From: Litchfieldella anticariensis FP35 = DSM 16096
GTDB lineage: Bacteria > Pseudomonadota > Gammaproteobacteria > Pseudomonadales > Halomonadaceae
Direction: 5' to 3'
NCBI RefSeq assembly: GCF_000409775.1
Contig: NZ_KE332391.1
Span: forward strand, 139,248 to 203,247
Length of the DNA: 64,000 nt
Below the pieces are notes generated by a model. The model searched no databases, had not been told where the DNA came from, and saw nothing but the letters and a program-made list of their open reading frames with translations. The translations under genes were made by a program, and so were the position numbers. This document shows, piece after piece, positions 30,753 through 59,514 of the stretch. Each line of letters opens with the position of its first letter. Position 1 is the first letter of the stretch.

Positions 30753-32018
30753 CTAGTAGTCGGGTCGGCGTCGGGAAACGCTCGAGTCTCGTGGCCAGAG
30801 CAGCCAAATCAAGGCCAGCCCCTGCAGGCACACCACTAGCCCAAAGCAGACTTGGTATCCCGTAGCGAAATATCCCACCCCGGGTCCCGCGTCCCAGAAC
30901 CCGATGACGAGGCCGATGCCCCATTGCAGAGAGAAAGCCCCCAGGAAGACCATTAGGTTGAATGCCGTGATCACCCGGCCCAACAGGGCGACTTCAAACT
31001 GTGTAGAAATGACCGTATACAGCAACGTACCGGAAGTGCCGCATAGTCCGAACATCAACCACACAGGCAGTACATTGCCCGTTGGCTGCCAAGTCAGCAC
31101 CATGACCGACAGCAAGAAAAGCACCAGCCCGGCGCCTGCCACCTTTATTGGCTTGATACCGAGCCGTCCCAGTCTTTCTGCCAAAGTTCCCCAAGCGACA
31201 AAGCCAACGGTGGTCGCGAGTGCCAACAGCAGCAGATGCTGTGCGACGGCGTTACGGTCCAGCTCCGCGACATCACGCAGCCACGGTCCCGCCCAGAGTC
31301 CCTGGATCGCCATAGGCGCACCGGAAAACACCATGGCGGCAGGGGCAAAGCGCCAGAATACCGAGCTACGGAGAATGTGGAACAAGGCAGCGACCTGTCG
31401 TCTCAACGGTTCTGCCTTGGTCATGTTCGTTTTCTCCGGTACTACCCACCACAGTACGGCCGCTACAACAACACAGGCCATTGCCAGCCCAACGAACAGT
31501 ACTCGCCAAGTCGTCACTCCCAGTATGGCTTCGACAGGGGCTGTGGCACTCATCGCGCCAAGCCCACCACAAGCCAGCATGTACCCATTGACGAGGGGGA
31601 GTCGATGCGGCTCGAACCATTGCGAGAAGGTCTTGAAACTCGCCATCAAACAGGCAGAAACCCCCACACCGATCAAAGCCCGACCAACGCTCAGCGTCGC
31701 CAGCTCTTGACCCGCAGCGAAGGTGAGAGAGCCGGCTCCCGCGATCAACAGCAGAAGCGACTCCACACGACGCGGACCAAAACGGTCGAGGAGCACCCCC
31801 AGTGGCAACTGGAAACACGCGAAGGCAAGAAAGTAGAACCCCGTCAGCAAGCCAAGCTGATCGGCACTCATGCCAACATCCGTCTCCAACTCACTCGCGA
31901 TCACGGCGTTGACGTTACGAAACAGATAGGAGAGGAAATAGCCGGCAGCAAATGGCAGGAAAATCCGAGAAAATCGGTTCGTCACCGCGGCTGGGACTGC
32001 CTGGGCTTCATTTCGCAA
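30753..32018 (-). CDS. MFS transporter
   Basis: A 421-residue carrier with 12 predicted hydrophobic segments. The loop 2-3 motif is LPLGVLLDRFGPRRVES, and NMTKAEPLRRQ marks the central loop. The start is a TTG at 32018 with GAGGAG seven bases before it; no in-frame ATG lies nearby. The substrate is unknown. The gene is flanked by an esterase pseudogene and, 206 bp upstream, by the end of the TAXI gene on the same strand. The gap 32019-32224 holds no gene. Confidence 0.85.
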   Translation of the reverse strand: MRNEAQAVPAAVTNRFSRIFLPFAAGYFLSYLFRNVNAVIASELETDVGMSADQLGLLTGFYFLAFACFQLPLGVLLDRFGPRRVESLLLLIAGAGSLTFAAGQELATLSVGRALIGVGVSACLMASFKTFSQWFEPHRLPLVNGYMLACGGLGAMSATAPVEAILGVTTWRVLFVGLAMACVVVAAVLWWVVPEKTNMTKAEPLRRQVAALFHILRSSVFWRFAPAAMVFSGAPMAIQGLWAGPWLRDVAELDRNAVAQHLLLLALATTVGFVAWGTLAERLGRLGIKPIKVAGAGLVLFLLSVMVLTWQPTGNVLPVWLMFGLCGTSGTLLYTVISTQFEVALLGRVITAFNLMVFLGAFSLQWGIGLVIGFWDAGPGVGYFATGYQVCFGLVVCLQGLALIWLLWPRDSSVSRRRPDY

Positions 32019-45385: not shown

Positions 45386-45964
45386 TCATTCCGCCTCTTT
45401 GTAGGCCACGAACTCTCCCTTGCCGACAGGCACCAGGCAGGTCGTGAATGCCTCCAGTTTTTCGACATAAGCCATGAAGTCGGCCAGTTCCGCCTGATGC
45501 GAGATGGCATTGTCACATATCAACACTCCACCAGGGTTCAGCACGGCCATCACATCATCGATGAAGTCCAGGTATTGCGAACGTTCAGCATCGAGGAAGA
45601 CCATATCGAAGCGCGTCTCTCGTGCCCGCAGATAGCCCGCCGCAGAGCCTTCGATCTGCCGGATCTTGTGGGCCAACCCAGCCCTGGCAAAATTATCGCG
45701 TGCCTCGCACACCTTGTCGGACGAGACTTCGACAGTGGTGACACGACCCGAGTCGTCGATAGAGGACGCCAGCCACAGCGTGGAGTAGCCATTCGAGGTA
45801 CCGATTTCCAGTACCTTGCTGGCCTTCATGGCTTTGAGCAGCACCGCCAGGAATTGGCCGGTATCACGGGTAATGTTGAGATATTTCCGGCTTCGCTCGG
45901 TGGTTTGGGCATCGTTCTCTTCGCCCTTCCGCTCCAACTCTGCCAGCAATTCATCGATTGACAT
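45386..45964 (-). CDS. SAM-dependent O-methyltransferase
   Basis: A 192-residue class-I methyltransferase of the catechol/caffeoyl-CoA type. Motif I is KVLEIGTSNGYSTLWLASSI at about residue 50, then VTTVEVSSDKVCEARDNFAR. The metal-binding Asp region is FDMVFLDAERSQYLDFIDDV and the second is GGVLICDNAISH. A GGAGG site precedes the ATG at 45964. It would methylate a catechol-like hydroxyl with divalent metal help. The substrate is unknown. Confidence 0.85.
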   Translation of the reverse strand: MSIDELLAELERKGEENDAQTTERSRKYLNITRDTGQFLAVLLKAMKASKVLEIGTSNGYSTLWLASSIDDSGRVTTVEVSSDKVCEARDNFARAGLAHKIRQIEGSAAGYLRARETRFDMVFLDAERSQYLDFIDDVMAVLNPGGVLICDNAISHQAELADFMAYVEKLEAFTTCLVPVGKGEFVAYKEAE

Positions 45965-47881: not shown

Positions 47882-48574
47882 ATGATGTCGACTCGCTACA
47901 AGGCCGCCCTTTCGGCCCTTCCATTGCTGTACTGTACTGCTGCTGCTCATGCCTTGGACTGGCAGGAAGCGCCGCGTTACAACACCATCAACCTGTCATC
48001 CGGTTTCCAACCGGATCCCCAACAGTTCGAAATCACCGCGGGTGGCAATACTCCCGCCTCCAAGGCAGGCTCCAACTGTACTGGCTATGTCCACGGTCTG
48101 GCCCCCGACATGGACTTCAATTTCGAAGCCGGCGAATACCAGCTCGTTGTCTATGTCGAGTCATCGGCCGATACCACCCTGGTGGTCAATGACGCCGATG
48201 GCAACTGGCACTGCAACGACGATTTCTCCTCATCCAGTGGTACCAATCCGGCTATCAAATGGGTCAATCCTCCATCGGGCAACTACAACGTCTGGGTCGG
48301 CACCCTTGCTGGTGGGCAGGCGGATGCCACGGTCAAGTTCTCCGAAATGGATCCCGAGTGGCACGGCAGCCCCGCTGCTGTCTCTAGCAGCTCCGGGATC
48401 CAGTGGGGCGACGACGGCAGTGAATGGAGTCACGATGGGGAGTGCGACGATCCACGCTTCGAGGGTCCCAGCGTGCATTCCATCAATATCGAGGAAGACC
48501 GCTACCACGATGCCAGCGATTGTCGTGCTCTTTATGAGCAGGGTCAGGTCTTTCTGAAACCTGAATACCGCTAA
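47882..48574 (+). CDS. Exported beta-rich protein with pre-peptidase-like domain
   Basis: A 230-residue secreted protein with a Sec signal (YKAALSALPLLYCTAAAHAL). The middle (GYVHGLAPDMDFNFEAGEYQ, VYVESSADTTLVVNDADGNW, YNVWVGTLAGGQADATVKF) resembles beta-jelly-roll pre-peptidase C-terminal type domains found in secreted proteases of halophiles. The last ~60 residues (GSEWSHDGECDDPRFEGPSV) are acidic, with a Cys pair. There is no protease catalytic site. It starts 91 bp after the S33 hydrolase. Function unknown. Confidence 0.7.
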   Translation: MMSTRYKAALSALPLLYCTAAAHALDWQEAPRYNTINLSSGFQPDPQQFEITAGGNTPASKAGSNCTGYVHGLAPDMDFNFEAGEYQLVVYVESSADTTLVVNDADGNWHCNDDFSSSSGTNPAIKWVNPPSGNYNVWVGTLAGGQADATVKFSEMDPEWHGSPAAVSSSSGIQWGDDGSEWSHDGECDDPRFEGPSVHSINIEEDRYHDASDCRALYEQGQVFLKPEYR

Positions 48575-48590
48575 TAAGTGACACTTCCTC

Positions 48591-48624
48591 TCGAGTCCAT
48601 CACGACATGAAGTGATGGACTCGA
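48591..48624. terminator. Bidirectional stem-loop between convergent genes
   Basis: TCGAGTCCATCAC and GTGATGGACTCGA form a perfect 13-bp stem with an 8-base loop, lying between the exported protein gene and the corA-like gene. No strong T-run follows on either side, so it is a likely but not classical terminator. Confidence 0.7.
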
Positions 48625-48642
48625 TCACGTTTGCTGATGCGG

Positions 48643-49611
48643 CTATATCCACCCCTTGCGACGAAATAGCCACACCAGCCCAATCCCTAACCCCAGCATG
48701 AACGTCACTACGACGAAATAAGCGTACTTGAAACCCAGCTCCGGCATGTACTCGAAGTTCATGCCATAGATGCCCACGATAAAGGTCAGCGGCACGAAAA
48801 TGGCAGTGATCACCGTCAGGATACGCATGGTGTTATTGAGCTGGTGCGTTGAGATCGATATGTAACCGTCGATTAGGTCACCGCAGATGTCATAGTACAT
48901 CTGGGTCAAGCTGTAGAGGCGTTCAAAACGCTCGAAGACGTCATTGATGGCATGCAGCGTTTCGGCGTTCTCACGCGACAGGTGGCGGTAGTCGTAGGCG
49001 ATCAACTCGCGCGTGATCCCTTGGTGATAATTGAAGATGCGGCGCATCTTCACCAACCGCGACCGATAACCGGTAATCCGCCTCATCAACTTGTCGGTGC
49101 CGGCTTGTTGCAGTTCGTCTTCCAGATCACTGAGTTGAGTCTCGAATTCCAGCAGACTATCCAGATAGAAACCTGCGGATGTATACATGATCTTCAAGGC
49201 GACATGTTCGGGGGAACGCCGCAATAGAGACTTTCCTTCATTTTCTAACAAGCGGTCGACGCTCATGGCCATGCCAGGATGCAGGCTGACCAAGTAGCGA
49301 TCGCTGACAAAAAAGGAGATCTGCTGCGGCTGGTAATTCAGCTCGGCATCGAAGGAAGAAATCCCACGGTAGATGATCAGGGTGTGGGATTCGAATTCCT
49401 CGATCTTGGGAGGGTGACGCTCGCGATGCGCATCGCTGATCGCCAGGGGATGACAGCCAAAATCCTCGAGCAAGGCTCGCTCTCTCGCTATCGGCTCGCC
49501 CTGCAGATCGATCCAGATATGGCTATCGGAATCCTCTTTCCAGCGTGCGATCAGCTCCTCACCACCGGTCTCTGATTGACCATCGGCGGTGACCAGTAGG
49601 GTGCGTATCAT
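48643..49611 (-). CDS. corA: CorA family Mg/Zn transporter
   Basis: A 322-residue CorA-like channel. The cytoplasmic part is rich in charged residues, and the C-terminus has two transmembrane helices with YGMNFEYMPELG after the first (the GMN motif) and a closing RRKGWI tail. A GGGAGA site precedes the ATG. In this branch (ZntB/CorA) the protein moves Mg2+ or Zn2+. The identification is firm, the ion less so. Confidence 0.9.
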   Translation of the reverse strand: MIRTLLVTADGQSETGGEELIARWKEDSDSHIWIDLQGEPIARERALLEDFGCHPLAISDAHRERHPPKIEEFESHTLIIYRGISSFDAELNYQPQQISFFVSDRYLVSLHPGMAMSVDRLLENEGKSLLRRSPEHVALKIMYTSAGFYLDSLLEFETQLSDLEDELQQAGTDKLMRRITGYRSRLVKMRRIFNYHQGITRELIAYDYRHLSRENAETLHAINDVFERFERLYSLTQMYYDICGDLIDGYISISTHQLNNTMRILTVITAIFVPLTFIVGIYGMNFEYMPELGFKYAYFVVVTFMLGLGIGLVWLFRRKGWI

Positions 49612-49661
49612 GATGTCTCCCGCATTCCATTAGCCCAAGGATACATGAGGCACGGAACACC

Positions 49662-50894
49662 TCAGTGGCGTTTGACCTTCCATATGCGCCAAGCCAGCGC
49701 GCCAATGATCAAGATGCCAAGCGGCCCCAGGATGGCAGCCGCGACATGCGGCTCGATCACCAAGCCAAGTGCCTCGAGTCCCTCGAGGGAAATCTTGAAG
49801 AGGCTTAGTATGTAGTAGCTGATGACGATGATCGACAGCCCCTCGACGGTCTTCTGGAGCTTCAGCTGGCTGCTGGTGCGCTCGTTGAGACTCTGCAGCA
49901 TTTCCGAGTTCTGCTCCTCGATCTCGACCTGAGCCCGTGTTCGCAACAAGCCATTCAACTGAGCAACACTCTTGGCCAAGCCGACTTGACGCTTGTTGAT
50001 CGCTGCACAGTAGCGAACGGTTGGTAGGAAACGCCGCATGATGAAGATGCCCAAGCGCTGGCAATCTTCCACGCGGGTCTCACGCAGTTCCTCGATACGA
50101 GCAAAAACGATCTTGGCATAGGCCTCAGTGGCGCTGAAGCGCTGCCGCGAACGGGCGCTACTGTGCTCCAGGTGCGCCGAAAGCACGGAAATGGCATCGA
50201 GCAGTGGCCGCGAAGTCTCGAGATGACTCTCGGCGTTGCGATCCGATAGTTCGCCGAGTTCGTTCTCATACTGCCGGAGTTCCGCACCAAGCTCCTTGGC
50301 TAACGGCAACGACAATGAAGCCATCATACGGTAGGTCTCGATTTCCAGCAGCCGACGCGTCATCCTGCCCAACCGATAGTCGTTGAGCTGATGGTTGACG
50401 ACCAGAATGCGATTGACGCCTTCCGAGGTGAGTCGAAAGTCGCTCCATACGATCGCGTCCCCACCGCCTACATGTGAGCCGGCCGGGTCCTTGAAACCAT
50501 AGGCCTTGGTGTCTCCGGCCCAGCTCGTTGCCGATTCGATCAGTATCAGGCTGGCATTGATCAACGCCTCGTGATGCTGTTCGACGATTTTCTCCAGCAT
50601 CACGGGAGGCTGCGGCCAGTATTCACCGCCTTCGACCTTGGGTGCCAGCATGGTAAGAGTGAAGAATTCCGTGTGACGCTCCCACTTCAAGGTCAGACCA
50701 TCTAGCTTGATGATCCCTTGGGCGGCATTCGTATCGAATGGGGCCTCGGCTGCCTCACAAAGACGGCGAATGATGGTGTCACAGACACCATCGGTATCGA
50801 GAAAAGCGAAATGGTGCAGATGCGCCGGTTCCTTGAAATAAATGGAGGGCCGGGCATGAAGCTCGTTGTGCAGAATTTCTCTCAGGGGATGCAT
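49662..50894 (-). CDS. DUF3422 domain-containing protein
   Basis: A 410-residue protein starting MHPLREILHNELHARPSIYF, the DUF3422 head (NELHARP...F). It goes on with KWERHTEFFTLTMLAPKVEG, SDFRLTSEGVNRILVV and ARSRQRFSATEAYAKIVFAR, and ends in two hydrophobic segments (ISLEGLEALGLVIEP region and ILGPLGILIIGALAW). It is probably an inner-membrane protein with a large cytoplasmic part. The start at 50894 fits the conserved head; a longer frame to 50993 is rejected. Function unknown. It lies 50 bp upstream of corA on the same strand. Confidence 0.8.
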   Translation of the reverse strand: MHPLREILHNELHARPSIYFKEPAHLHHFAFLDTDGVCDTIIRRLCEAAEAPFDTNAAQGIIKLDGLTLKWERHTEFFTLTMLAPKVEGGEYWPQPPVMLEKIVEQHHEALINASLILIESATSWAGDTKAYGFKDPAGSHVGGGDAIVWSDFRLTSEGVNRILVVNHQLNDYRLGRMTRRLLEIETYRMMASLSLPLAKELGAELRQYENELGELSDRNAESHLETSRPLLDAISVLSAHLEHSSARSRQRFSATEAYAKIVFARIEELRETRVEDCQRLGIFIMRRFLPTVRYCAAINKRQVGLAKSVAQLNGLLRTRAQVEIEEQNSEMLQSLNERTSSQLKLQKTVEGLSIIVISYYILSLFKISLEGLEALGLVIEPHVAAAILGPLGILIIGALAWRIWKVKRH

Positions 50895-50999
50895 GGCAGG
50901 GTCTATAAGAGGGTGAAGCTGTGAGCGTAACCTCTGGAATCGAGGCGTCAAGCCAACTTTCAGGCAGACCCGGAAGTCGGAGGTTTTCGCCACCCACCA

Positions 51000-51155
51000 T
51001 CACGGTTTGTCGATGCGCTTTATCTTATGCTTGAGTCTGAGCCTTTCTTTCCGATCGCGTTCACGCTTGCGCTGTCTGGCCGGTGCATCACCATTGGCCA
51101 GATGCGTCAGGAATTCGATTTCTTCGGTGAGCATTGGGTGCGGGTTGCGCGCCAT
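51000..51155 (-). CDS. Small basic protein (51 residues)
   Basis: A short frame starting MARNPHPMLTEEIEFLTHLA and ending in a run rich in Arg and Lys. A GGGAGG site lies 8 bases before the ATG at 51155, and a GTG at 51224 is an alternative. It could bind nucleic acid, but no family is recognised. It lies between DUF523 and DUF3422 genes on the same strand. Confidence 0.5.
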   Translation of the reverse strand: MARNPHPMLTEEIEFLTHLANGDAPARQRKRERDRKERLRLKHKIKRIDKP

Positions 51156-51238
51156 GGCACAGGCCTCCCAGCTAGCGTTGCCTACGACGCTAGCGGGGAA
51201 GTATTGCCGAGCGATGACAGCCACTAAGCCAGTATCAC

Positions 51239-51733
51239 CTAACTTTCAGCCTTGAGATGCTTGGCCAGCACGTCGACCTCTGTGTGGGCAAAAACCTCGA
51301 TGCCATGGCGACGCAATAACGCCGTAGTGACACCTTCACCGGGATGGCGGACTCCGCTGAAGCTGCCATCGTGGATTTCCCGGCTACCGCACGAGGGGCT
51401 ACCGTCGGTGAGCAGAGCGAAGCGACAACCATGTCGCTGAGCCAGTTGCAGCGCCAACCGGGCTCCGGTAACGAAGGAGGCGGTCACATCATCACCCTGA
51501 TCGTCGAGGATACGCACCTCGCTTTCCAGTACGTCTGCCCCGCTGGCTGCCTGTTCGATCTCAGCGGGTGGACGTGGTGTGGGCATACCACCAACGACTT
51601 CCGGACAGATCGGCACCAAGCGGCCTTCCCGCTGCCACTGGGCAAGCAGCGGGTGGTCGATCTCCTTGCTCGACCCGTTGTAGCGCACCGGATTGCCGAG
51701 CAGGCAAGCGCTGATCAATATCTTGGTCGTCAT
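51239..51733 (-). CDS. DUF523 family protein (YbbK-like)
   Basis: A 164-residue protein starting MTTKILISACLLGNPVRYNG, the DUF523 signature, with LVPICPEVVGGMPTPRPPAE and LLTDGSPSCGSREIHDG. Three Cys (ISACLLG, PICPE, PSCGS) may be metal- or redox-active. Function unknown. It is followed on the same strand by a small basic protein and preceded by an aldo/keto reductase. Confidence 0.88.
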   Translation of the reverse strand: MTTKILISACLLGNPVRYNGSSKEIDHPLLAQWQREGRLVPICPEVVGGMPTPRPPAEIEQAASGADVLESEVRILDDQGDDVTASFVTGARLALQLAQRHGCRFALLTDGSPSCGSREIHDGSFSGVRHPGEGVTTALLRRHGIEVFAHTEVDVLAKHLKAES

Positions 51734-51754
51734 CTCGGTTATATCAGTGTCAAT

Positions 51755-52570
51755 TCATTCATCCCACTGTGGTGCCCATTCGGGATCGGCGATGCGCTCG
51801 CCGGCATCCAGTCCGTCAATCCTGGAGATCTCGTCGTCACTGAGTTCCAGTTCCAAGGCTGCCAGGTTGGCATGCTGGTGTTCCGGCTTGGTGGACGAGG
51901 GAATCACCACGATATCGCGTGAGGCAACCCACGCAAGGGCTATCTGCGCCGGTGTCGCGCCATGGGCATCGGCAATTTCCTGCAGCAGAGGATCCTTCAT
52001 CACCTTTCCTACCGCCAGCGGCATATAGCCAGTAACCTGCAACCCCTTCTCCTCACAGTGCGAGACTACCCTGCGGTTGGCAAGATAGGGATGCACCTCG
52101 ATCTGATTGGTGACGATATGCTCGCCACCCGACACACTCAATGCCGCATCGATATGGGCGATGGTGAAGTTGGAAACACCAATGTGTCGGGTCAGGCCCT
52201 TCTCACGAGCATGATTGAGCGCTCCAATGGTTTCGGCCATAGGCACTTCATCGTCAGGTGACGGCCAGTGGATCAACGCCAGGTCGAGCTTGTCCGTGCC
52301 AAGTCGATCGAGGCTCTCCTCCAGGCTCCTGATCAGGTCGTCGCCCTCAAGGCGATCGTACCAAACCTTGGTGGTAAGAAATATCTCGTCTCGTGGAATG
52401 CCGCTTTGGCGAATGGCCTTGCCCACCTCGGCCTCGTTCTCATACGCCTGGGCAGTGTCGACATGCCGGTAGCCCAGATCCAGCGCGGAACTCACGGAAT
52501 CGATAACCTCCTGTCCCTTGAGACGGAAGGTGCCCAGACCAATACGCGGAATGAGATTCGCTTGTGCCAT
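51755..52570 (-). CDS. dkgB: Aldo/keto reductase (2,5-diketo-D-gluconate reductase B type)
   Basis: A 271-residue AKR. The catalytic tetrad is seen: Asp and Tyr in YRHVDTAQAYENEAEVGKAI, Lys in EIFLTTKVWYDRL and His in LDLALIHWPSPDD. NADPH-binding residues lie in VIPSSTKPEHQHANLAALE. The ATG at 52570 follows AAGGAGC. It reduces aldehydes or 2,5-diketo sugars. The gene is divergent from the SnoaL-like/ECF operon, 149 bp away. DkgB is the best match by pattern, but close paralogues exist. Confidence 0.82.
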   Translation of the reverse strand: MAQANLIPRIGLGTFRLKGQEVIDSVSSALDLGYRHVDTAQAYENEAEVGKAIRQSGIPRDEIFLTTKVWYDRLEGDDLIRSLEESLDRLGTDKLDLALIHWPSPDDEVPMAETIGALNHAREKGLTRHIGVSNFTIAHIDAALSVSGGEHIVTNQIEVHPYLANRRVVSHCEEKGLQVTGYMPLAVGKVMKDPLLQEIADAHGATPAQIALAWVASRDIVVIPSSTKPEHQHANLAALELELSDDEISRIDGLDAGERIADPEWAPQWDE

Positions 52571-52627
52571 CCTATTGCTCCTTGAAATCAAAGTGGGTCA
52601 TCCGGTGGATACGAATTTTTCCAGCAT

Positions 52628-52654
52628 TGTCGATTTCAGTGCACGGCGAACGAC
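52628..52654 (+). promoter_or_regulatory. Candidate ECF42-type promoter
   Basis: TGTCGA at 52628-52633 is followed after 17 bp by CGAC at 52651-52654, 65 bp before the SnoaL-like start. The published ECF42 consensus, as I remember it, is TGTCGA in the -35 and CG[AT]C in the -10 with about 16-17 bp between. The operon therefore looks autoregulated by its own sigma factor. Confidence 0.55.
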
Positions 52655-52719
52655 TACCATGCACATATCCCCTTTCGTCAAACCAATCTGGGGACGAATC
52701 CCCGACGGAGGAAACCGCC

Positions 52720-53166
52720 ATGAGCACCGCAGCCACCCCCCTATCCGCAGAAGCGGCCATTCTCGAGTCGCTCGAATCCTGGCAAGCCGCCGTGCGCGAC
52801 AAGGACATCGATGCCATCTCCGCTCATTATGCGCCGGGTATCGTCGCCTTCGACGCCATCACCGCGTTACAGTTCAAGGGAATCGAGGCCTATCGCCAGC
52901 ATTGGGAGACCTGTATGGCCATGTGCCAGGGTCCAATGACCTTCGAACTACATGAGGTGGCGATTACCGCGGAAGAGCATGTTGCCTTCATCCATGCCCT
53001 GGTCAATTGTGGGGGTACCAACGACAAGGGTGAACACGAGTCCGGCTGGACGCGCATGACCGCTGGCTATCGCCGCATTGATGGCCGCTGGCTGGTGGTG
53101 CACGAGCACTTCTCGGCCCCCTTTGATATGTCCAGCGGCAAGGCCATGTTCAATCTCGAACCGTAA
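52720..53166 (+). CDS. SnoaL-like / DUF4440 (SgcJ-EcaC family) protein
   Basis: A 148-residue NTF2-fold protein. It has AILESLESWQAAVRDKDIDA, SAHYAPGIVAFDAI, SGWTRMTAGYRRIDGRWLVV and HEHFSAPFDMSSGKAMF, a pattern common in SnoaL-like proteins with a W-x-x-x-H-x-H end. A GGAGG site precedes the ATG. It starts the unit with the DGPF protein and the ECF sigma factor. SnoaL-like domains occur in ECF41 and other ECF systems as a sensor or regulator domain; here it is a separate gene. Substrate unknown. Confidence 0.82.
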   Translation: MSTAATPLSAEAAILESLESWQAAVRDKDIDAISAHYAPGIVAFDAITALQFKGIEAYRQHWETCMAMCQGPMTFELHEVAITAEEHVAFIHALVNCGGTNDKGEHESGWTRMTAGYRRIDGRWLVVHEHFSAPFDMSSGKAMFNLEP

Positions 53167-53181
53167 CAAGGAGAGTCGGTC

Positions 53182-53562
53182 ATGAAATACCTCTGCCTCG
53201 TCTACAGTGATGAAAGCACCTTGCATACCCTGCCCGATAGTCCCGAGGACAGTGAATGCTTGGCCTATGCCGAAAAGGTTCAGGCCAGCGGCCGCATGAT
53301 AGCGGCTGAAGCGCTTCAGAGTGTGCACACCGCCACCACGGTACGGGTACGCAATGGCGAGACCTCGATCACCGATGGTCCTTTCGCTGAAACCAAGGAA
53401 CAGTTGGCGGGCTTCTATCTGGTCGATGCCGAAGACCTGAACGAAGCCCTGCGGATCGCCGAAGGAATCCCGGCAGCCCGTGTGGGTAGTGTCGAGGTTC
53501 GACCAGTACGCGAACTGCAGGTCGAATCGCCTTCGGTACAGGCACAGGAGAGCCATGCATGA
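53182..53562 (+). CDS. DGPF-type YCII-related protein
   Basis: A 126-residue protein of the YCII/DGPF type. MKYLCLVYSDESTLHTLPDS is the start and ITDGPFAETKEQLAGFYLVD carries the DGPF motif. An AAGGAGAG site precedes the ATG. DGPF genes are widely next to ECF42 sigma factors and are their usual targets or partners in actinobacteria and proteobacteria. The stop lies 16 bases before the sigma-factor start. Confidence 0.88.
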   Translation: MKYLCLVYSDESTLHTLPDSPEDSECLAYAEKVQASGRMIAAEALQSVHTATTVRVRNGETSITDGPFAETKEQLAGFYLVDAEDLNEALRIAEGIPAARVGSVEVRPVRELQVESPSVQAQESHA

Positions 53563-53578
53563 ATGTCGATGGCCACCC

Positions 53579-54832
53579 ATGAATGAGATGAACAGCCTGG
53601 AGCTTCACGCGCGAGTGGATGCCATCTACCGCAATGAATCGCGACGTGTTCTCGCTACCTTGATCCGTCTGCTGGGCGACTTCGAACTTGCCGAGGAAGC
53701 CCTGCACGATGCCTTCGCCGCGGCCGTGACCCAGTGGCCGCGGGAAGGGATACCCGATAACCCACGTGCCTGGTTGGTCTCTGCCGGACGCTTCAAGGCG
53801 ATCGATAGCCTGCGCCGCCAAACCCGTTTCGATGCATCCGTCACCGAGCTCGCCCGCCAGTTGGAGATCGAATCCACCACGGTATCGGACTGGGACGAGG
53901 AGAGCGTGGCTGACGACCACTTGCGCCTGATCTTCACCTGCTGCCATCCGGCACTCCCCCCGGACGCCCAGGTGGCACTGACCCTGCGTGAGGTCTGTGG
54001 CTTGACCACCGAGGAGATCGCACGCGCCTTCCTGACCCGGGCTTCCACCCTGGCGCAACGCATCGTGCGCGCCAAAGCCAAGATCCGCGACGCCCGCATC
54101 CCCTATCAGTTGCCCTCAACGGAGGAATTGCCGGAGAGATTGGACGCCGTACTGCGTGTGATCTATCTGGTTTTCAACGAAGGGTATTCGGCCTCCTTCG
54201 GGGATAGCGTCACACGCGCTGATCTGTCGAGCGAGTCGATCCGGCTGGGTCGCTTGATGAACGAACTGCTGCCGGAACCTGAAGCCATCGGTCTGCTGGC
54301 CCTGATGCTACTTCACGAATCACGACGCACGGCACGCACCACCCCGGAAGGCGACATCATCCTGCTCGACGAGCAAGATCGCACACAGTGGCGCCAGGAA
54401 CTGATCGAAGAAGGATCGTCCTTGGTGGAGAGAGCTCTGCGCTCGCGCCGTTTCGGCCCTTATACCTTGCAGGCAGCGATTGCGGCGGTGCATGCCGAGG
54501 CCCCCAGTGCCGAAGCAACCGACTGGGAACAGATCGTCGGTCTCTACGACGTCCTGCTACGGGTGGAACCTTCGCCTGTGATTGCCCTGAACCGTGCCGT
54601 GGCGATAGCGATGCGCGACGGTCCCCAAGCGGGGCTAGAGCTGATCGAGGCCATTCTCTCAAGAGGTGAACTGCGCGATTATCATCCGACACATGCGGCG
54701 CGGGGCGAGTTATACCGCCGACTCGGTCGCTTTGCCGAGGCAAGCGATGCCTTCCAACAAGCGCTTGAATTGGTACAACAAGGCCCCGAACGGCGCTTCA
54801 TCGAGCAACGGCTGGCCAAGTTATGCTTATAG
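53579..54832 (+). CDS. ECF42-type RNA polymerase sigma factor with TPR-like C-terminal domain
   Basis: A 417-residue sigma factor. Region 2 is RVLATLIRLLGDFELAEEAL, with HDAFAAAVTQWPREGIPDNP and RAWLVSAGRFKAIDSLRRQ. Region 4 is LRLIFTCCHPALPPDAQVAL, TLREVCGLTTEEIARAFLTR. The C-terminal ~200 residues (DUF6596-like) end in RGELYRRLGRFAEASDAFQQ, a TPR-like repeat. This long C-terminal part and the DGPF neighbour are typical of ECF42, for which no anti-sigma factor is known. ATG 53579 is chosen because the upstream frame overlaps the DGPF gene. The promoter at 52628-52654 may be its target. The stimulus is unknown. Confidence 0.88.
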   Translation: MNEMNSLELHARVDAIYRNESRRVLATLIRLLGDFELAEEALHDAFAAAVTQWPREGIPDNPRAWLVSAGRFKAIDSLRRQTRFDASVTELARQLEIESTTVSDWDEESVADDHLRLIFTCCHPALPPDAQVALTLREVCGLTTEEIARAFLTRASTLAQRIVRAKAKIRDARIPYQLPSTEELPERLDAVLRVIYLVFNEGYSASFGDSVTRADLSSESIRLGRLMNELLPEPEAIGLLALMLLHESRRTARTTPEGDIILLDEQDRTQWRQELIEEGSSLVERALRSRRFGPYTLQAAIAAVHAEAPSAEATDWEQIVGLYDVLLRVEPSPVIALNRAVAIAMRDGPQAGLELIEAILSRGELRDYHPTHAARGELYRRLGRFAEASDAFQQALELVQQGPERRFIEQRLAKLCL

Positions 54833-54854
54833 CCGTCAATGCTGGCTCTTTCCG

Positions 54855-55739
54855 CTATTTATCATGGTCGGGTTCGAGTGCGCGGGGGCCTTGCGCATAC
54901 TGAAAGAGGAACTCCAGCACTGAAGGCAGACTGGCACGCCATACACGCCAGGAATGCCCTCCGCGTAGCACTTCTAGAGAGACCTGGCCAGGCTGGTGCT
55001 GTTCCAGAATCCGATAAAGAAAATCAGCATATTCAGCAGCATCATGGACATCTCGGCTACCGGCACTGAGATAAAGCGGCACGACCCGTTCCTGCGCCTT
55101 GTAGCTATCCAAGTGGGCGGTATAGTTGACGCGCTGCCAAAGCTCGGTATCAAAGCGACCTTCAGGAGCCTGGAACGCCGGATGACGCCATGCCGAAGAG
55201 CTCCTGGGTGGCAATGGAGCATAGGCGGCAGGACTAAGGGCTGCAGCGGCAACGAAAAGGTCGGGACGCTCCAATATAAAGTTGATCGCACCGAAGCCAC
55301 CGGCCGATAGTCCGCCAATGGTCCGCCACTCTCGTTCTGGTACCACGTGCCAATTGTTCTCGATATGAGGTATCAAGTCCTCGAAGAAAGCCGTGCGGGC
55401 TTGTTCGTTATGACCATCCACCCACCAGCTCCGGCTGCGGGGCATGACGATGACGGCAGGCGGGATACGCCCCTTGCCAATCAACCGATCGGCGATCTGC
55501 TTGAGCCTCCCGCGCTTGACCCAGTCTCGGTCGCTGCCGAAGGAACCATGCAACAGGTACACCACGGGATAGCTTTGATTCGAGACCGCGTAGCCATCCG
55601 GCAAATAGAGTGTGTAAGGGTAGTCCCTACCCAAGGTCTCGGAATGAAAGGAGTGGTGTGAAACTTGTCCGGCCGTGGCCGTACCAGCCCCCAATAGCGT
55701 GAACATTAGCATGGCGACGAAAGGTTGCCGCACACGCAT
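54855..55739 (-). CDS. Exported esterase (feruloyl-esterase/EstA-like alpha/beta hydrolase)
   Basis: A 294-residue secreted esterase of the putative-esterase (PF00756) family. A signal peptide (FVAMLMFTLLGAGTATAG) precedes LYLPDGYAVSNQSYPVVYLL, HGSFGSDRDWVKRGRL, the nucleophile IGGLSAGGFGAINF, the Asp region SAGSRDVHDAAEYA and the His in GGHSWRVWRASL. A GGAGGT site precedes the ATG. It probably hydrolyses acyl esters in the periplasm or outside. It is divergent from an acyltransferase-3 gene 127 bp away, so the pair may act on the same acylated polymer, by inference. Confidence 0.85.
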   Translation of the reverse strand: MRVRQPFVAMLMFTLLGAGTATAGQVSHHSFHSETLGRDYPYTLYLPDGYAVSNQSYPVVYLLHGSFGSDRDWVKRGRLKQIADRLIGKGRIPPAVIVMPRSRSWWVDGHNEQARTAFFEDLIPHIENNWHVVPEREWRTIGGLSAGGFGAINFILERPDLFVAAAALSPAAYAPLPPRSSSAWRHPAFQAPEGRFDTELWQRVNYTAHLDSYKAQERVVPLYLSAGSRDVHDAAEYADFLYRILEQHQPGQVSLEVLRGGHSWRVWRASLPSVLEFLFQYAQGPRALEPDHDK

Positions 55740-55866
55740 ACGTGATTACCTCCATGAAAAACAAAATGAAAAATTTGTTCACGGAAATTCTTTCGCAAGG
55801 CAGGAGTCTGACAGTCACTTGGCGGCGCCGTTCAGTGCCTGTACATGGATAACGTGCAACGGATCA

Positions 55867-56880
55867 ATGGCGAGAATCGAGGAAATCTACTGGTTGCGGT
55901 CCTACGGCTGTATTGCCGTTTTCTGCTTTCACCTACTGGATCGGCTCAATCAGCATTTCGATAATGTGTATCTCGACCTGGCACGCATTCCTACCGTGCT
56001 GGGCACCCCGACGTTCGTCTTTATCTCGATTTTCCTGTTCTCGACTCGTTATGCTGGTGCCATTCCCGAAGGGTTCCTGGCCAACCGCATCAAGTACGTC
56101 ATGGCTCCCTACGTCGTCTATGGCTTGATCTATTCGACGACCAAGTACGTGAACGTCAAGACTAGCGGTGGCAACATCGATTTTATCTCCAACCTGGTCG
56201 AATACCTCCTATACGCTGGCTGGCATGGTTATTTCCTGATCATCGCCATGCAATTCTATGTTTTCTACTGGGCCTACACGCGTTATCGCCTGGAGCGTTT
56301 CCTTCCCCCTGGCCCTTGGCTGGTACTCGGCAGTTTGATCGGTATGCTCTATTGGGGACTGACTCGACTGTTCGAGTTCGAGCCACCAGGTTACCTGCTG
56401 TGGGTCGCCCCATGGGGCTGGCTTTACCTATTCTTCCTGGCATTGTTGATGGCTCGGTATTATCCGAACCCACCGCAGATCACGTTGCTACGAAAACTTT
56501 CCCATCCAGGCTGGCTTGCCGCCTGCCTCGGGCTTATCGTACTGCTTAGCCTCCCGGGCTGGCTGGAATACTCATCAAAGGAAACCTGGGTTGTCCCGCT
56601 ATTCCTTCTCTCCATCCTGGTGTGCATGCGTTACCTGCATGACCGTCCTGCCCCACCACTGGTGAAGAAGATCAACGAATATTCGTTCGGGATTTATCTG
56701 GCTCATCCTCTTTTCTTTGCCATGGTCGACTTCAGTGACCAATGGATGCACTTGCCTCCGGTGCCCTATGCCCTACTGATGATTGTGGCCGGTCTGGGCG
56801 GACCGATCACATTGAGTATCGCAGTGAATCAATATCAGTGGAGTGGAGTACTTTTCGGCAAACAACTGGCGATCCGGTAG
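55867..56880 (+). CDS. Acyltransferase 3 family membrane protein
   Basis: A 337-residue protein with about 9-10 hydrophobic segments. It starts MARIEEIYWLRSYGCIAVFC, with FHLLDRLNQHF; the pattern W-L-R-x-x-G-x-I-A-V-x-C/F-H is the head of acyltransferase-3 enzymes, with the His in FHLLDR. It ends with INEYSFGIYLAHPLFFAMVD, a typical end. These enzymes add acetyl or other acyl groups to sugars, peptidoglycan or exopolysaccharide. The start at 55867 gives the family head; a frame back to 55675 overlaps the divergent esterase and is rejected. Confidence 0.82.
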   Translation: MARIEEIYWLRSYGCIAVFCFHLLDRLNQHFDNVYLDLARIPTVLGTPTFVFISIFLFSTRYAGAIPEGFLANRIKYVMAPYVVYGLIYSTTKYVNVKTSGGNIDFISNLVEYLLYAGWHGYFLIIAMQFYVFYWAYTRYRLERFLPPGPWLVLGSLIGMLYWGLTRLFEFEPPGYLLWVAPWGWLYLFFLALLMARYYPNPPQITLLRKLSHPGWLAACLGLIVLLSLPGWLEYSSKETWVVPLFLLSILVCMRYLHDRPAPPLVKKINEYSFGIYLAHPLFFAMVDFSDQWMHLPPVPYALLMIVAGLGGPITLSIAVNQYQWSGVLFGKQLAIR

Positions 56881-56928
56881 TGGGAACCAGACCGCTGCTC
56901 AGGGTGACAATGTCCCAGCCTTGGCGTT

Positions 56929-58647
56929 TTAGGTCAGGCCGACGACATGCCCTTTCTCATCCAGTCCCATGCGCATGGCCGCAGGCTGTCGTGGCAATCC
57001 CGGCATGGTCATGATGTCGCCGCAGACAGCCACCACGAAACCAGCCCCGGCCGAGAGTCGTGCTTCACGCACGTCCAAGCGGTGTCCATCGGGAGCTCCC
57101 CGCACATTGGGGTCACAGGAAAAGCTGTACTGGGTCTTGGCAATGCAAACCGGCAGGTCGCCGTAGCCCATATCCTCGAAGGCCTGGAGCTGGCGGGCGG
57201 CAGCTGGATGCAGAGCGATATCGGCAGCACCATAGAACTCGGTCGCCACCGTGCGGATCTTGTCAGCCAATGGCAGCATATCGGGGTACAAACATCTGAT
57301 ATGAGGTGCTGGAGTGGTATTCAGTTGCTCGTTCAATGCCTCTGCCAACGCCATGGCTCCTGCTCCGCCGCGAGCCCAATGCGATGTCTCCACCGCCTGG
57401 ACGCCAAGGCCGGCGCACAGCGATGCCACCAGATCAATCTCTTCCCGTGAGTCAGAGGCGAAGGAGTTGATGGCCACGATCGGCGATAGGCCAAAGTGCT
57501 GCAGGTTGCTCACATGGCGGCGTAAGTTGTCGAACCCCAGTCGTACGGCTTCAGGGTCCGGTATATCCCAAGTCGTCTTGTCGGCACCGCCATGAAAACG
57601 TAAGGCACGCAGAGTACAGACCAGCACCGCCGCATCGGGAGATAGCCCAGATTGCCGACACTTGATATCGATGAACTTCTCTGCGCCTAGATCCGCACCG
57701 AAGCCGGCTTCGGTGACGACGATATCGTTCAGCGCCAATGCGGCCTGTGTCGCCATCACTGAACTGCAGCCATGGGCAATATTGCCGAATGGGCCGCCAT
57801 GGATGAAGGCCAGATTATGTTCCAGGCTCTGTACCAGGTTGGGTTGCAGCGCATCCTTGAGCAGTACGGCCATGGCACCGGCAGCTTCCAGATCGTTGGC
57901 AGTGACTGGTGTCCCGTCACGACGATAGGCGATGATGATCCGCCCCAAGCGGCTTTCCAGATCCTCCAAGTCCCGAGCCAGACACAGGATCGCCATGATC
58001 TCCGACGCCACGGTAATGTCGAAGCCATCTTCGCGCGGCACACCATGAGCCGCACCGCCAAGCCCAATGGTGATATGGCGCAGTGCGCGATCATTGATAT
58101 CTATCGCTCGCTTCCAGACGATCTGATGCGGATCGATATCCAGCGCGTTGCTCCAGTGCAGGTGGTTGTCGACCAGAGCGGCGAGCAGATTGTGTGCCGC
58201 GGTAATCGCATGGAAGTCACCATTGAAATGCAGGTTGATGTCTTCCATGGGTACCACTTGAGCCCGGCCACCACCAGCCGCACCTCCCTTCATGCCGAAA
58301 CATGGCCCCAGAGAGGGCTCCCGAAGGCATGTAGCCGTCTGCAGTCCCAGACGATTGAAGGCATCCCCCAATCCCACGCTGGTGGTGGTCTTACCTTCAC
58401 CGGCCGGGGTGGGGCTGATGGCCGTGACCAGTATCAACTTGCCCTTGGGGCGCTCAGCCAGAGATGCCAGATAATCGAGTGACAGCTTGGCCTTGTAATG
58501 ACCGTAAGGGATCAGGGCGTGTGCAGGAACACCAAGGCGTTCCTCGGCCAATGACAAGATCGGCCGCATCGGTGTGGCCCGTGCGATCTCGATATCCGGA
58601 GTGCCGGGTGCCAAGGCCTCGACCAGCGGTGTGAGAGAGGTATTCAT
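56929..58647 (-). CDS. fhs: Formate--tetrahydrofolate ligase
   Basis: A 572-residue enzyme that makes 10-formyl-THF from formate, THF and ATP. The ATP loop is [20 protein letters not shown], and [20 protein letters not shown] and [20 protein letters not shown] are the family signatures. The rest ([29 protein letters not shown]-like [16 protein letters not shown]) is complete. The usual length is about 555-560. It stands as a single gene. It feeds one-carbon units to purine and serine metabolism and can also clear formate. No glycine-cleavage or folD neighbour is seen. Confidence 0.96.
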
Positions 58648-58800
58648 GGTCCACCATCCACGGCGCTGCGGTGTGTCGGAATCGGCGCATTACATAGAAG
58701 ATGATGTCAGCATGCGTCTCTCCCACACTGCCGGCATATTCTTGGGCGACACTGGACATTCCAAAACCGGCATTCGGCCAATGGTTTAGGCCTCTTTCCT

Positions 58801-59514
58801 TCATACCGTTGCTTCAAAGGCCGCCTTTAGACGATAGAACTCCTCGACGATAGCCTCCATGGCGACAGCGTCATAGTCTCGCAAGCCGCTCACCACCAGT
58901 TTCTTGGAGCCACTGCCGATGATCTCTCCCCGGGAGGTCAGACGAAACTCGAGGAGCGCATCACCACGCTTGCCGGTCACCGTCAAGGAAGAGCTTGCCA
59001 GCTCGAGACCGGGATCTGGAGCATCCAGCCGGTCCAGGGCGAACCCCATGCTATCGTAGATCACCAACGGCCGTTGAGGATTGAACATGACGCCCTGCTG
59101 TTCCATCAGCGGTTTCAAATAATGAGGGAAATTCTTGCCTGAAAACGCGACATAGCGGCGAGTAAAGGCTTCCACCACTGCCATGTCATGGGTGAGCTCA
59201 CCGTCACGTTCAACCTCGAGATAGACCTTCCCCGCCGTATCCACTACCTGGACACCACCGCCGGCCCGCTCACGAAAGTCGAGAGGTACATCGGCCCCCA
59301 CCATGCTCAGAAAGCGAAAGCTCATACGCTGCGACAGCCCGAAACGAGCTAGCACCAAGGCAAACAACAAATCACCAGGCACGCAAAAGCGACGCGCATC
59401 CGGGTTGTGGATCGGGTTGTAGTCACCGGCAATCCGTTTGGCAAAGCGGCTGGCCTGCTCTGCGGAGATTCGAACCCGCCCTTCGATGAGCGAGTGAAAT
59501 TCATCAAGAAACAT
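58801..59514 (-). CDS. DUF3581 family protein
   Basis: A 237-residue soluble protein. The head MFLDEFHSLIEGRVRISAEQ, then FAKRIAGDYNPIHNPDARRF, resembles hot-dog-fold proteins (the DYNPIH segment is like that of MaoC dehydratases) and matches DUF3581 as I recall it. The later part has YVAFSGKNFPHYLKPLMEQQ and VIYDSMGFALDRLDAPD. No catalytic role is known. The ribosome site is weak. Confidence 0.78.
   Translation of the reverse strand: MFLDEFHSLIEGRVRISAEQASRFAKRIAGDYNPIHNPDARRFCVPGDLLFALVLARFGLSQRMSFRFLSMVGADVPLDFRERAGGGVQVVDTAGKVYLEVERDGELTHDMAVVEAFTRRYVAFSGKNFPHYLKPLMEQQGVMFNPQRPLVIYDSMGFALDRLDAPDPGLELASSSLTVTGKRGDALLEFRLTSRGEIIGSGSKKLVVSGLRDYDAVAMEAIVEEFYRLKAAFEATV

Follow-up and report, generated by a model that had tools for sequence, protein, structure and literature searches.

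ECF42 is a widespread group of sigma factors, and an operon of Litchfieldella anticariensis that appears to encode one of them raises the question of how far such a regulator reaches. Does it act on its own operon alone or also on genes elsewhere, and what is the role of the small proteins encoded beside it? The operon lies in a 64,000-nucleotide stretch of DNA, referred to here as the window. Comparison with the rest of the genome and with related genomes points to an ECF42 sigma operon that feeds back positively on itself and governs a few units elsewhere in the genome, a reading to which we assign a probability of about 0.8. The locus contains the following features:

52628..52654, + strand: ECF42-type promoter, TGTCGA-17-CGAC, 65 bp 5' of the SnoaL gene
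52720..53166, + strand: SnoaL_3-like gene, 148 aa (Pfam SnoaL_3, E 6.7e-21)
53182..53562, + strand: YCII/DGPF gene, 126 aa (Pfam YCII, E 9.3e-25)
53555..54832, + strand: ECF42-type sigma gene, up to 425 aa, with regions 2 and 4, DUF6596 and a TPR-like tail

The three Pfam-assigned genes follow one another on the + strand as one unit, as the original prediction of a SnoaL-DGPF-sigma module had proposed. Its assignment of the sigma factor to ECF42, based on a long TPR-like tail and an adjoining DGPF gene, is likewise supported. The sigma domains found by Pfam are Sigma70_r2 and Sigma70_r4_2/r4 only, that is, regions 2 and 4 with no region 3. They are followed by a C-terminal extension of about 200 aa that contains DUF6596 (residues 195-294, E 2.3e-37) and TPR_2 (residues 380-406 of 425 aa), and the YCII/DGPF gene lies directly upstream of the sigma gene. 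Among the 25 listed of 44 NCBIfam models, the general sigma70-ECF superfamily model alone exceeds its cut-off. Membership of ECF41 was rejected because the 148 aa SnoaL protein is encoded by an ORF of its own and the sigma factor ends in a DUF6596/TPR tail, with no fusion of the two. Candidate starts of the sigma gene are 53555, 53579 and 53588; the first has AGGAG at 53546-53550 and gives the overlap ATGCATGA with the DGPF stop at 53560-53562, and the sigma proteins of relatives align from about 53579. A genome search returned no second gene of this type (next matches E 5e-5 and 1e-4). The product of the sigma gene is the single genomic match to the DUF6596 profile, and it is 69, 70 and 71% identical by alignment to three Pseudomonas sigma factors. 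In five relatives (G032, G059, G093, G172 and G248) the sigma gene carries internal stop codons, and that of G055 (L054/L056) matches in two pieces, which suggests that decay of the sigma gene is in progress in these genomes.

Pfam identifies the three flanking genes examined as an aldo/keto reductase, a putative esterase and a 2-thiouracil desulfurase. Inspection of the ORFs of 48000-59000 by eye likewise revealed no anti-sigma gene, in agreement with the earlier remark that none lies nearby. The aldo/keto reductase gene (51755-52570, - strand) is divergent from the operon. It adjoins the module in G001 (L192) as well, and in Aidingimonas lacisalsi (L057; Halomonadaceae), the nearest named relative by tree, it is part of the flanking sequence.

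Target promoters of ECF42 factors have a TGTCGA-type -35 and a CGAC-type -10 element in the published consensus. Before the operon, TGTCGA at 52628-52633 is separated by 17 bp from CGAC at 52651-52654, reading CGACTA to 52656, and transcription is expected to start near 52661-52663. A search of 52450-55000 yielded no sigma-70-type promoter and one terminator-like site, which is on the opposite strand. Taken alone, the short motif is weakly significant: with a spacer of exactly 17 bp it occurs three times in the window versus 0.25 times expected from shuffles, and three sites were reached in 1 of 100 shuffles. The other two window sites (31510-31536, and 45441-45467 on the - strand) were taken as chance since they lie inside ORFs, which we labeled MFS transporter-like and O-methyltransferase-like, respectively, from a reading of their sequences. 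The promoter is convincing because of its position and conservation and not because of the motif by itself. We took the best 80 of 580 confirmed sigma protein matches as named relatives, 79 of which had a testable upstream region. TGTCGA-17-CGWC precedes the first gene in 35 of these 79 regions; the opposite strand has it in 2, and base shuffling produced it in 0.09% of copies. The order SnoaL-DGPF-sigma, scored with gaps up to 700 bp, occurs in 26 units among the same best 80 of 580 relatives (25 in Pseudomonas and one in Stutzerimonas), and 25 of the 26 have TGTCGA-17-CGWC 5' of SnoaL. The predicted ECF42-like promoter before the first gene is thus present and conserved, and with the same promoter in nearly all such units the operon is a standard form of a known ECF42 module, not a new one.

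The original prediction had also suggested scanning the genome for the motif. In its loose form, TGTCGA-N15-18-CGAC, the motif occurs 178 times in the genome (5.07 Mb) versus 70 times for the reversed pattern, and we rejected it as a genome-wide predictor on these counts. Two of the listed sites had further bases in common with the operon promoter. The extended motif TGTCGATTT-N10-CGAACGAC has three exact copies, one copy with one mismatch and three with two mismatches, and its reversed control has none at up to two mismatches. The exact and one-mismatch copies lie 5' of four units, one of which is the SnoaL-DGPF-sigma operon. A tight form, TGTCGA-N15-RACGAC, has eight genomic sites (reversed control, 0). 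Five of these are 5' of module-type genes or an efflux pump, marking four further units besides the operon:

second DGPF gene, then FMN reductase gene: extended motif 5', Pfam-assigned
DUF899 gene, then glyoxalase-like gene: extended motif 5', Pfam-assigned
MFP-RND-OMF efflux operon with a divergent LysR-type gene: extended motif 5', Pfam-assigned
second DUF899 gene: TGTCGA-N15-RACGAC 5'

The remaining three tight sites are inside ORFs. C15:170757, which is the MFS-like site of the window, and C19:94039, in a TRAP transporter-like ORF, were taken as chance. The third, C1:1029892 (L246 519-1527), falls within a methyltransferase-like ORF, has a YCII-like ORF about 500 bp away and is ambiguous. 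A GST gene at the two-mismatch site C1:267012 was left out, being 23% identical to the motif-bearing GST of relatives. Besides its own operon, the ECF42 sigma factor probably has a small dispersed regulon.

A simpler account would limit the sigma factor to its own operon and ascribe the other motif copies to chance or to a different sigma factor. The abundance of the short motif in the genome would favor this account, but the extended motif has exact copies where its reversed control has none, and most of the downstream genes are of the same families as the operon partners or as the genes that usually adjoin ECF42 factors. The distribution of the motif bears on the same point. We sampled 250 genomes of the host family, that of L. 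anticariensis included, 97 of which carry the sigma gene. The extended motif, at up to one mismatch, has 44 sites in 35 of the 250 genomes (reversed control, 6 sites), and its presence tracks the sigma gene: 30 of the 97 sigma-bearing genomes have the motif versus 5 of the 153 without sigma (Fisher 1.0e-9, or 2.3e-9 excluding the L. anticariensis genome itself), p-values that overstate independence because the genomes are related. DUF6596 is absent from all five motif-bearing genomes that lack the sigma gene.

We read 29 of the 40 sites outside L. anticariensis, 24 in sigma-bearing and five in sigma-less genomes. All 24 of the former precede module- or target-type genes: SnoaL (4), MFP (5), DUF899 (6, one partial), GST (2), DGPF or DGPF-glyoxalase (5), DUF1428-like (1) and tandem glyoxalase-like (1). 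One of the five sites in sigma-less genomes precedes a GST gene and four precede nothing recognizable. Eight representative target proteins were checked with Pfam, namely seven from the family (DUF899 twice, GST, YCII-glyoxalase twice, SnoaL and MFP) and a glyoxalase-like protein from a Pseudomonas site; the other labels rest on sequence reading. Three sigma-less genomes retain a full or near-full motif before target genes, which fits the simpler account: G108 (GST, L156), and G019 and G111 (pump; L256 and L257). No DUF6596 protein was found in these three; either they lost sigma recently or a different sigma factor uses the motif there. Taking both sides together, we regard control of the sigma operon alone as quite unlikely and retain the dispersed regulon.

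The original prediction had suggested that SnoaL may be an extra sensor. Close SnoaL homologues (at least 53% identity) occur in 14 of the 250 genomes, all 14 of them sigma-bearing (hypergeometric 9.5e-7, a value that ignores relatedness). In 12 of the 14 none of the other module genes lies within 1.5 kb of it, and SnoaL occurs together with DGPF and sigma, among those 14, only in the two genomes of the host genus. A relaxed motif lies within 250 bp 5' of SnoaL in 11 of 14, as TGTCGA-17-CGAC in five and with GGTCGA or AGTCGA in six. The remaining three upstream regions, inspected by eye, have TGTCGA-17-CGAT or CGAG in two cases and nothing clear in the third. The motif is absent from all three weak SnoaL homologues, two of which are in sigma-less genomes. 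Because SnoaL stands alone, usually under the relaxed motif, in 12 of 14 genomes, comparison across the family makes it more likely an output than a sensor, and the sensor proposal is not supported; we predict that SnoaL is the first output gene of the operon. SnoaL, with or without DGPF, might nevertheless be a sensor or partner that gates sigma via the TPR tail. SnoaL is in the sigma operon here and in 25 of 33 Pseudomonas loci among the best 80 of 580 relatives, and the review PMC8999054 describes SnoaL domains fused to ECF41 sigma factors as regulating them and YCII proteins as proposed regulatory partners of ECF42. A required partner should rarely be missing, however, and a close SnoaL homologue is found in just 14 of the 97 sigma-bearing family genomes, so that we consider gating by SnoaL improbable. 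DGPF is far more constant than SnoaL, with a DGPF-type match in 74 of the 80 named sigma loci (best 80 of 580), and this constancy is compatible with DGPF as a sigma partner, which it may be.

Whether the sigma factor would activate its own gene depends on where the promoter lies relative to that gene. We compared 117 sigma loci, the 80 named ones (best 80 of 580 matches) and 37 of the host family, in gene-order classes in which short flanks and genes outside the query set may misplace some loci. The motif TGTCGR-17-CGDY precedes sigma in none of the 57 loci that lack a recognized module gene before sigma. When a module gene follows sigma (43 loci), the motif is between sigma and that gene in 36, and when a module gene comes first (60 loci), the motif precedes it in 47. 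Opposite-strand controls gave 1/57, 1/43 and 3/60, respectively, and shuffled copies 0.2-0.4%. The sigma-motif-target form was found in loci labeled Cyanobacteria, Planctomycetes, Chloroflexi, Armatimonadetes and Proteobacteria. A FastTree tree of 104 labeled rows requires nine changes of gene order, at least three of them forced by well supported branches. Since the promoter goes with the targets, sigma would take part in the feedback loop only where its gene follows theirs, which is the case in SnoaL-DGPF-sigma. Gene order may therefore set self-activation in ECF42 systems, and the pattern would predict which of them self-activate. For the present operon a self-activating layout is supported, as the original prediction proposed, and from this layout we infer the activation itself.

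The less expected of the predicted targets is the MFP-RND-OMF pump. MFP orthologues (at least 66% identity) were found in at least 39 of the 250 genomes by a search that scored at most seven candidates per genome, and 36 of the 39 are sigma-bearing (hypergeometric 4e-14, again ignoring relatedness); nine distant homologues (46-49%) were set aside. The pump upstream regions examined numbered 30 (27 from sigma-bearing and three from sigma-less genomes), the other nine orthologues all being in sigma-bearing genomes. The motif is present in 23 of the 27 (six as CGAT), two further regions are one base short, and it is absent before the orthologue in sigma-bearing G083 and G207. Among the three sigma-less genomes it is kept in G019 and G111 and absent in G110. 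In the 23 sigma-bearing genomes 107-281 bp separate the motif from the matched MFP start downstream of it, and the intervening stretch varies.

The motif separates the pump from a divergent LysR-type gene, and it could be a LysR-type operator, or some other element, and not a sigma promoter; the phenotype of a P. putida knockout, described below, is also not indicative of pump activation by ECF42. Yet the pump site has both promoter elements at 17 bp spacing in 23 sigma-bearing genomes, and identical elements precede the SnoaL-DGPF-sigma operon, whose divergent neighbor is an aldo/keto reductase gene. On balance an operator function appears unlikely to us. We lean slightly towards the full proposal, in which the ECF42 factor would directly switch on the MFP-RND-OMF operon and the DGPF, SnoaL, DUF899 and glyoxalase-like outputs in the host family, and in which the promoter would stay with the targets across bacteria, gene order setting self-activation. 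The module itself is of a known kind and the ECF42 promoter before an RND pump is a new lead; we met no report of such a promoter in the openly licensed literature. Conservation of an ECF42 promoter ahead of a tripartite pump would link the group directly to efflux.

In the mechanism that we propose, RNA polymerase with the ECF42 sigma factor would recognize TGTCGA-N15-RACGAC promoters. Active sigma would yield more sigma together with SnoaL and DGPF, as two small output proteins, and the further promoters would drive the second DGPF/FMN reductase unit, the two DUF899 units and the MFP-RND-OMF efflux operon. By analogy, sigma would most likely be gated by its own DUF6596/TPR tail, possibly via a protein partner, and not via a membrane anti-sigma factor. 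The reviews PMC8999054 and PMC9023288 describe the ECF42 tail as essential for activity and as possibly binding a protein, with YCII suggested. Judged by its gene content, the predicted regulon would deal with small reactive or hydrophobic compounds, which may be modified or reduced inside the cell and then pumped out. Such a compact, sequence-defined regulon, conserved over the family, would give a direct handle on the ECF42 inducing signal.

To the known ECF42 systems our analysis adds a defined set of predicted targets, the demotion of SnoaL to a likely output, a conserved pump motif and a gene-order pattern for feedback. RpoE10 of Sinorhizobium meliloti, also an ECF42 factor, resembles the present one in its TPR tail and YCII neighbor, in having no anti-sigma gene and in controlling a small regulon that includes glyoxylase-like genes (PMC6180224). 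The promoters responsive to it, with TGTCGG and CGTC in that source, are similar but not identical to TGTCGA/CGAC. The same paper reports that RpoE10 raised two operons with glyoxylase-like genes, one adjacent to the RpoE10 gene and the other, judging from its locus tag, at a distance. Overexpression did not raise its own operon, a result that counts against self-activation. The Streptomyces venezuelae ECF42 factors Sven_0747, Sven_4377 and Sven_7131 likewise have a C-terminal TPR extension, essential for activity there according to the review PMC8999054. In ECF41 factors (SigJ type) a SnoaL domain is also involved, but as that review describes it is fused to the sigma factor, whereas here it is a separate gene.

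ECF-10 (PP4553) of P. putida KT2440 and other Pseudomonas ECF42 factors allow a comparison at the level of the whole operon. P. putida 17522 (L128) has the same gene order and promoter and a sigma factor 71% identical to that of the operon by alignment, which we infer to be the ECF-10 orthologue. Among the best 80 of 580 relatives, the promoter accompanies 24 of the 25 Pseudomonas loci with this order. TGTCGATY-N11-CNRACGAC has 35 sites in 25 of the 36 genomes that stand behind named loci (31 Pseudomonas and five others; reversed control, 0). Of the ten loci read, four correspond to the promoters of the sigma operons themselves and six are remote, comprising two DUF899, two glyoxalase-like and two unrecognized sites (one in Stutzerimonas). 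No RND pump was seen at the six remote sites read, and there are at least four further remote sites besides. According to PMC4613276, knockout of ECF-10 in P. putida increased biofilm and raised antibiotic resistance 2-4 fold, and a table row in PMC9322497 links the reference for this knockout to TtgABC. Whether the conserved pump motif of the host family relates to this phenotype is a useful question, as the phenotype runs in the opposite direction. Resistance rises without sigma, which opposes simple activation of a pump by ECF42 in P. putida.
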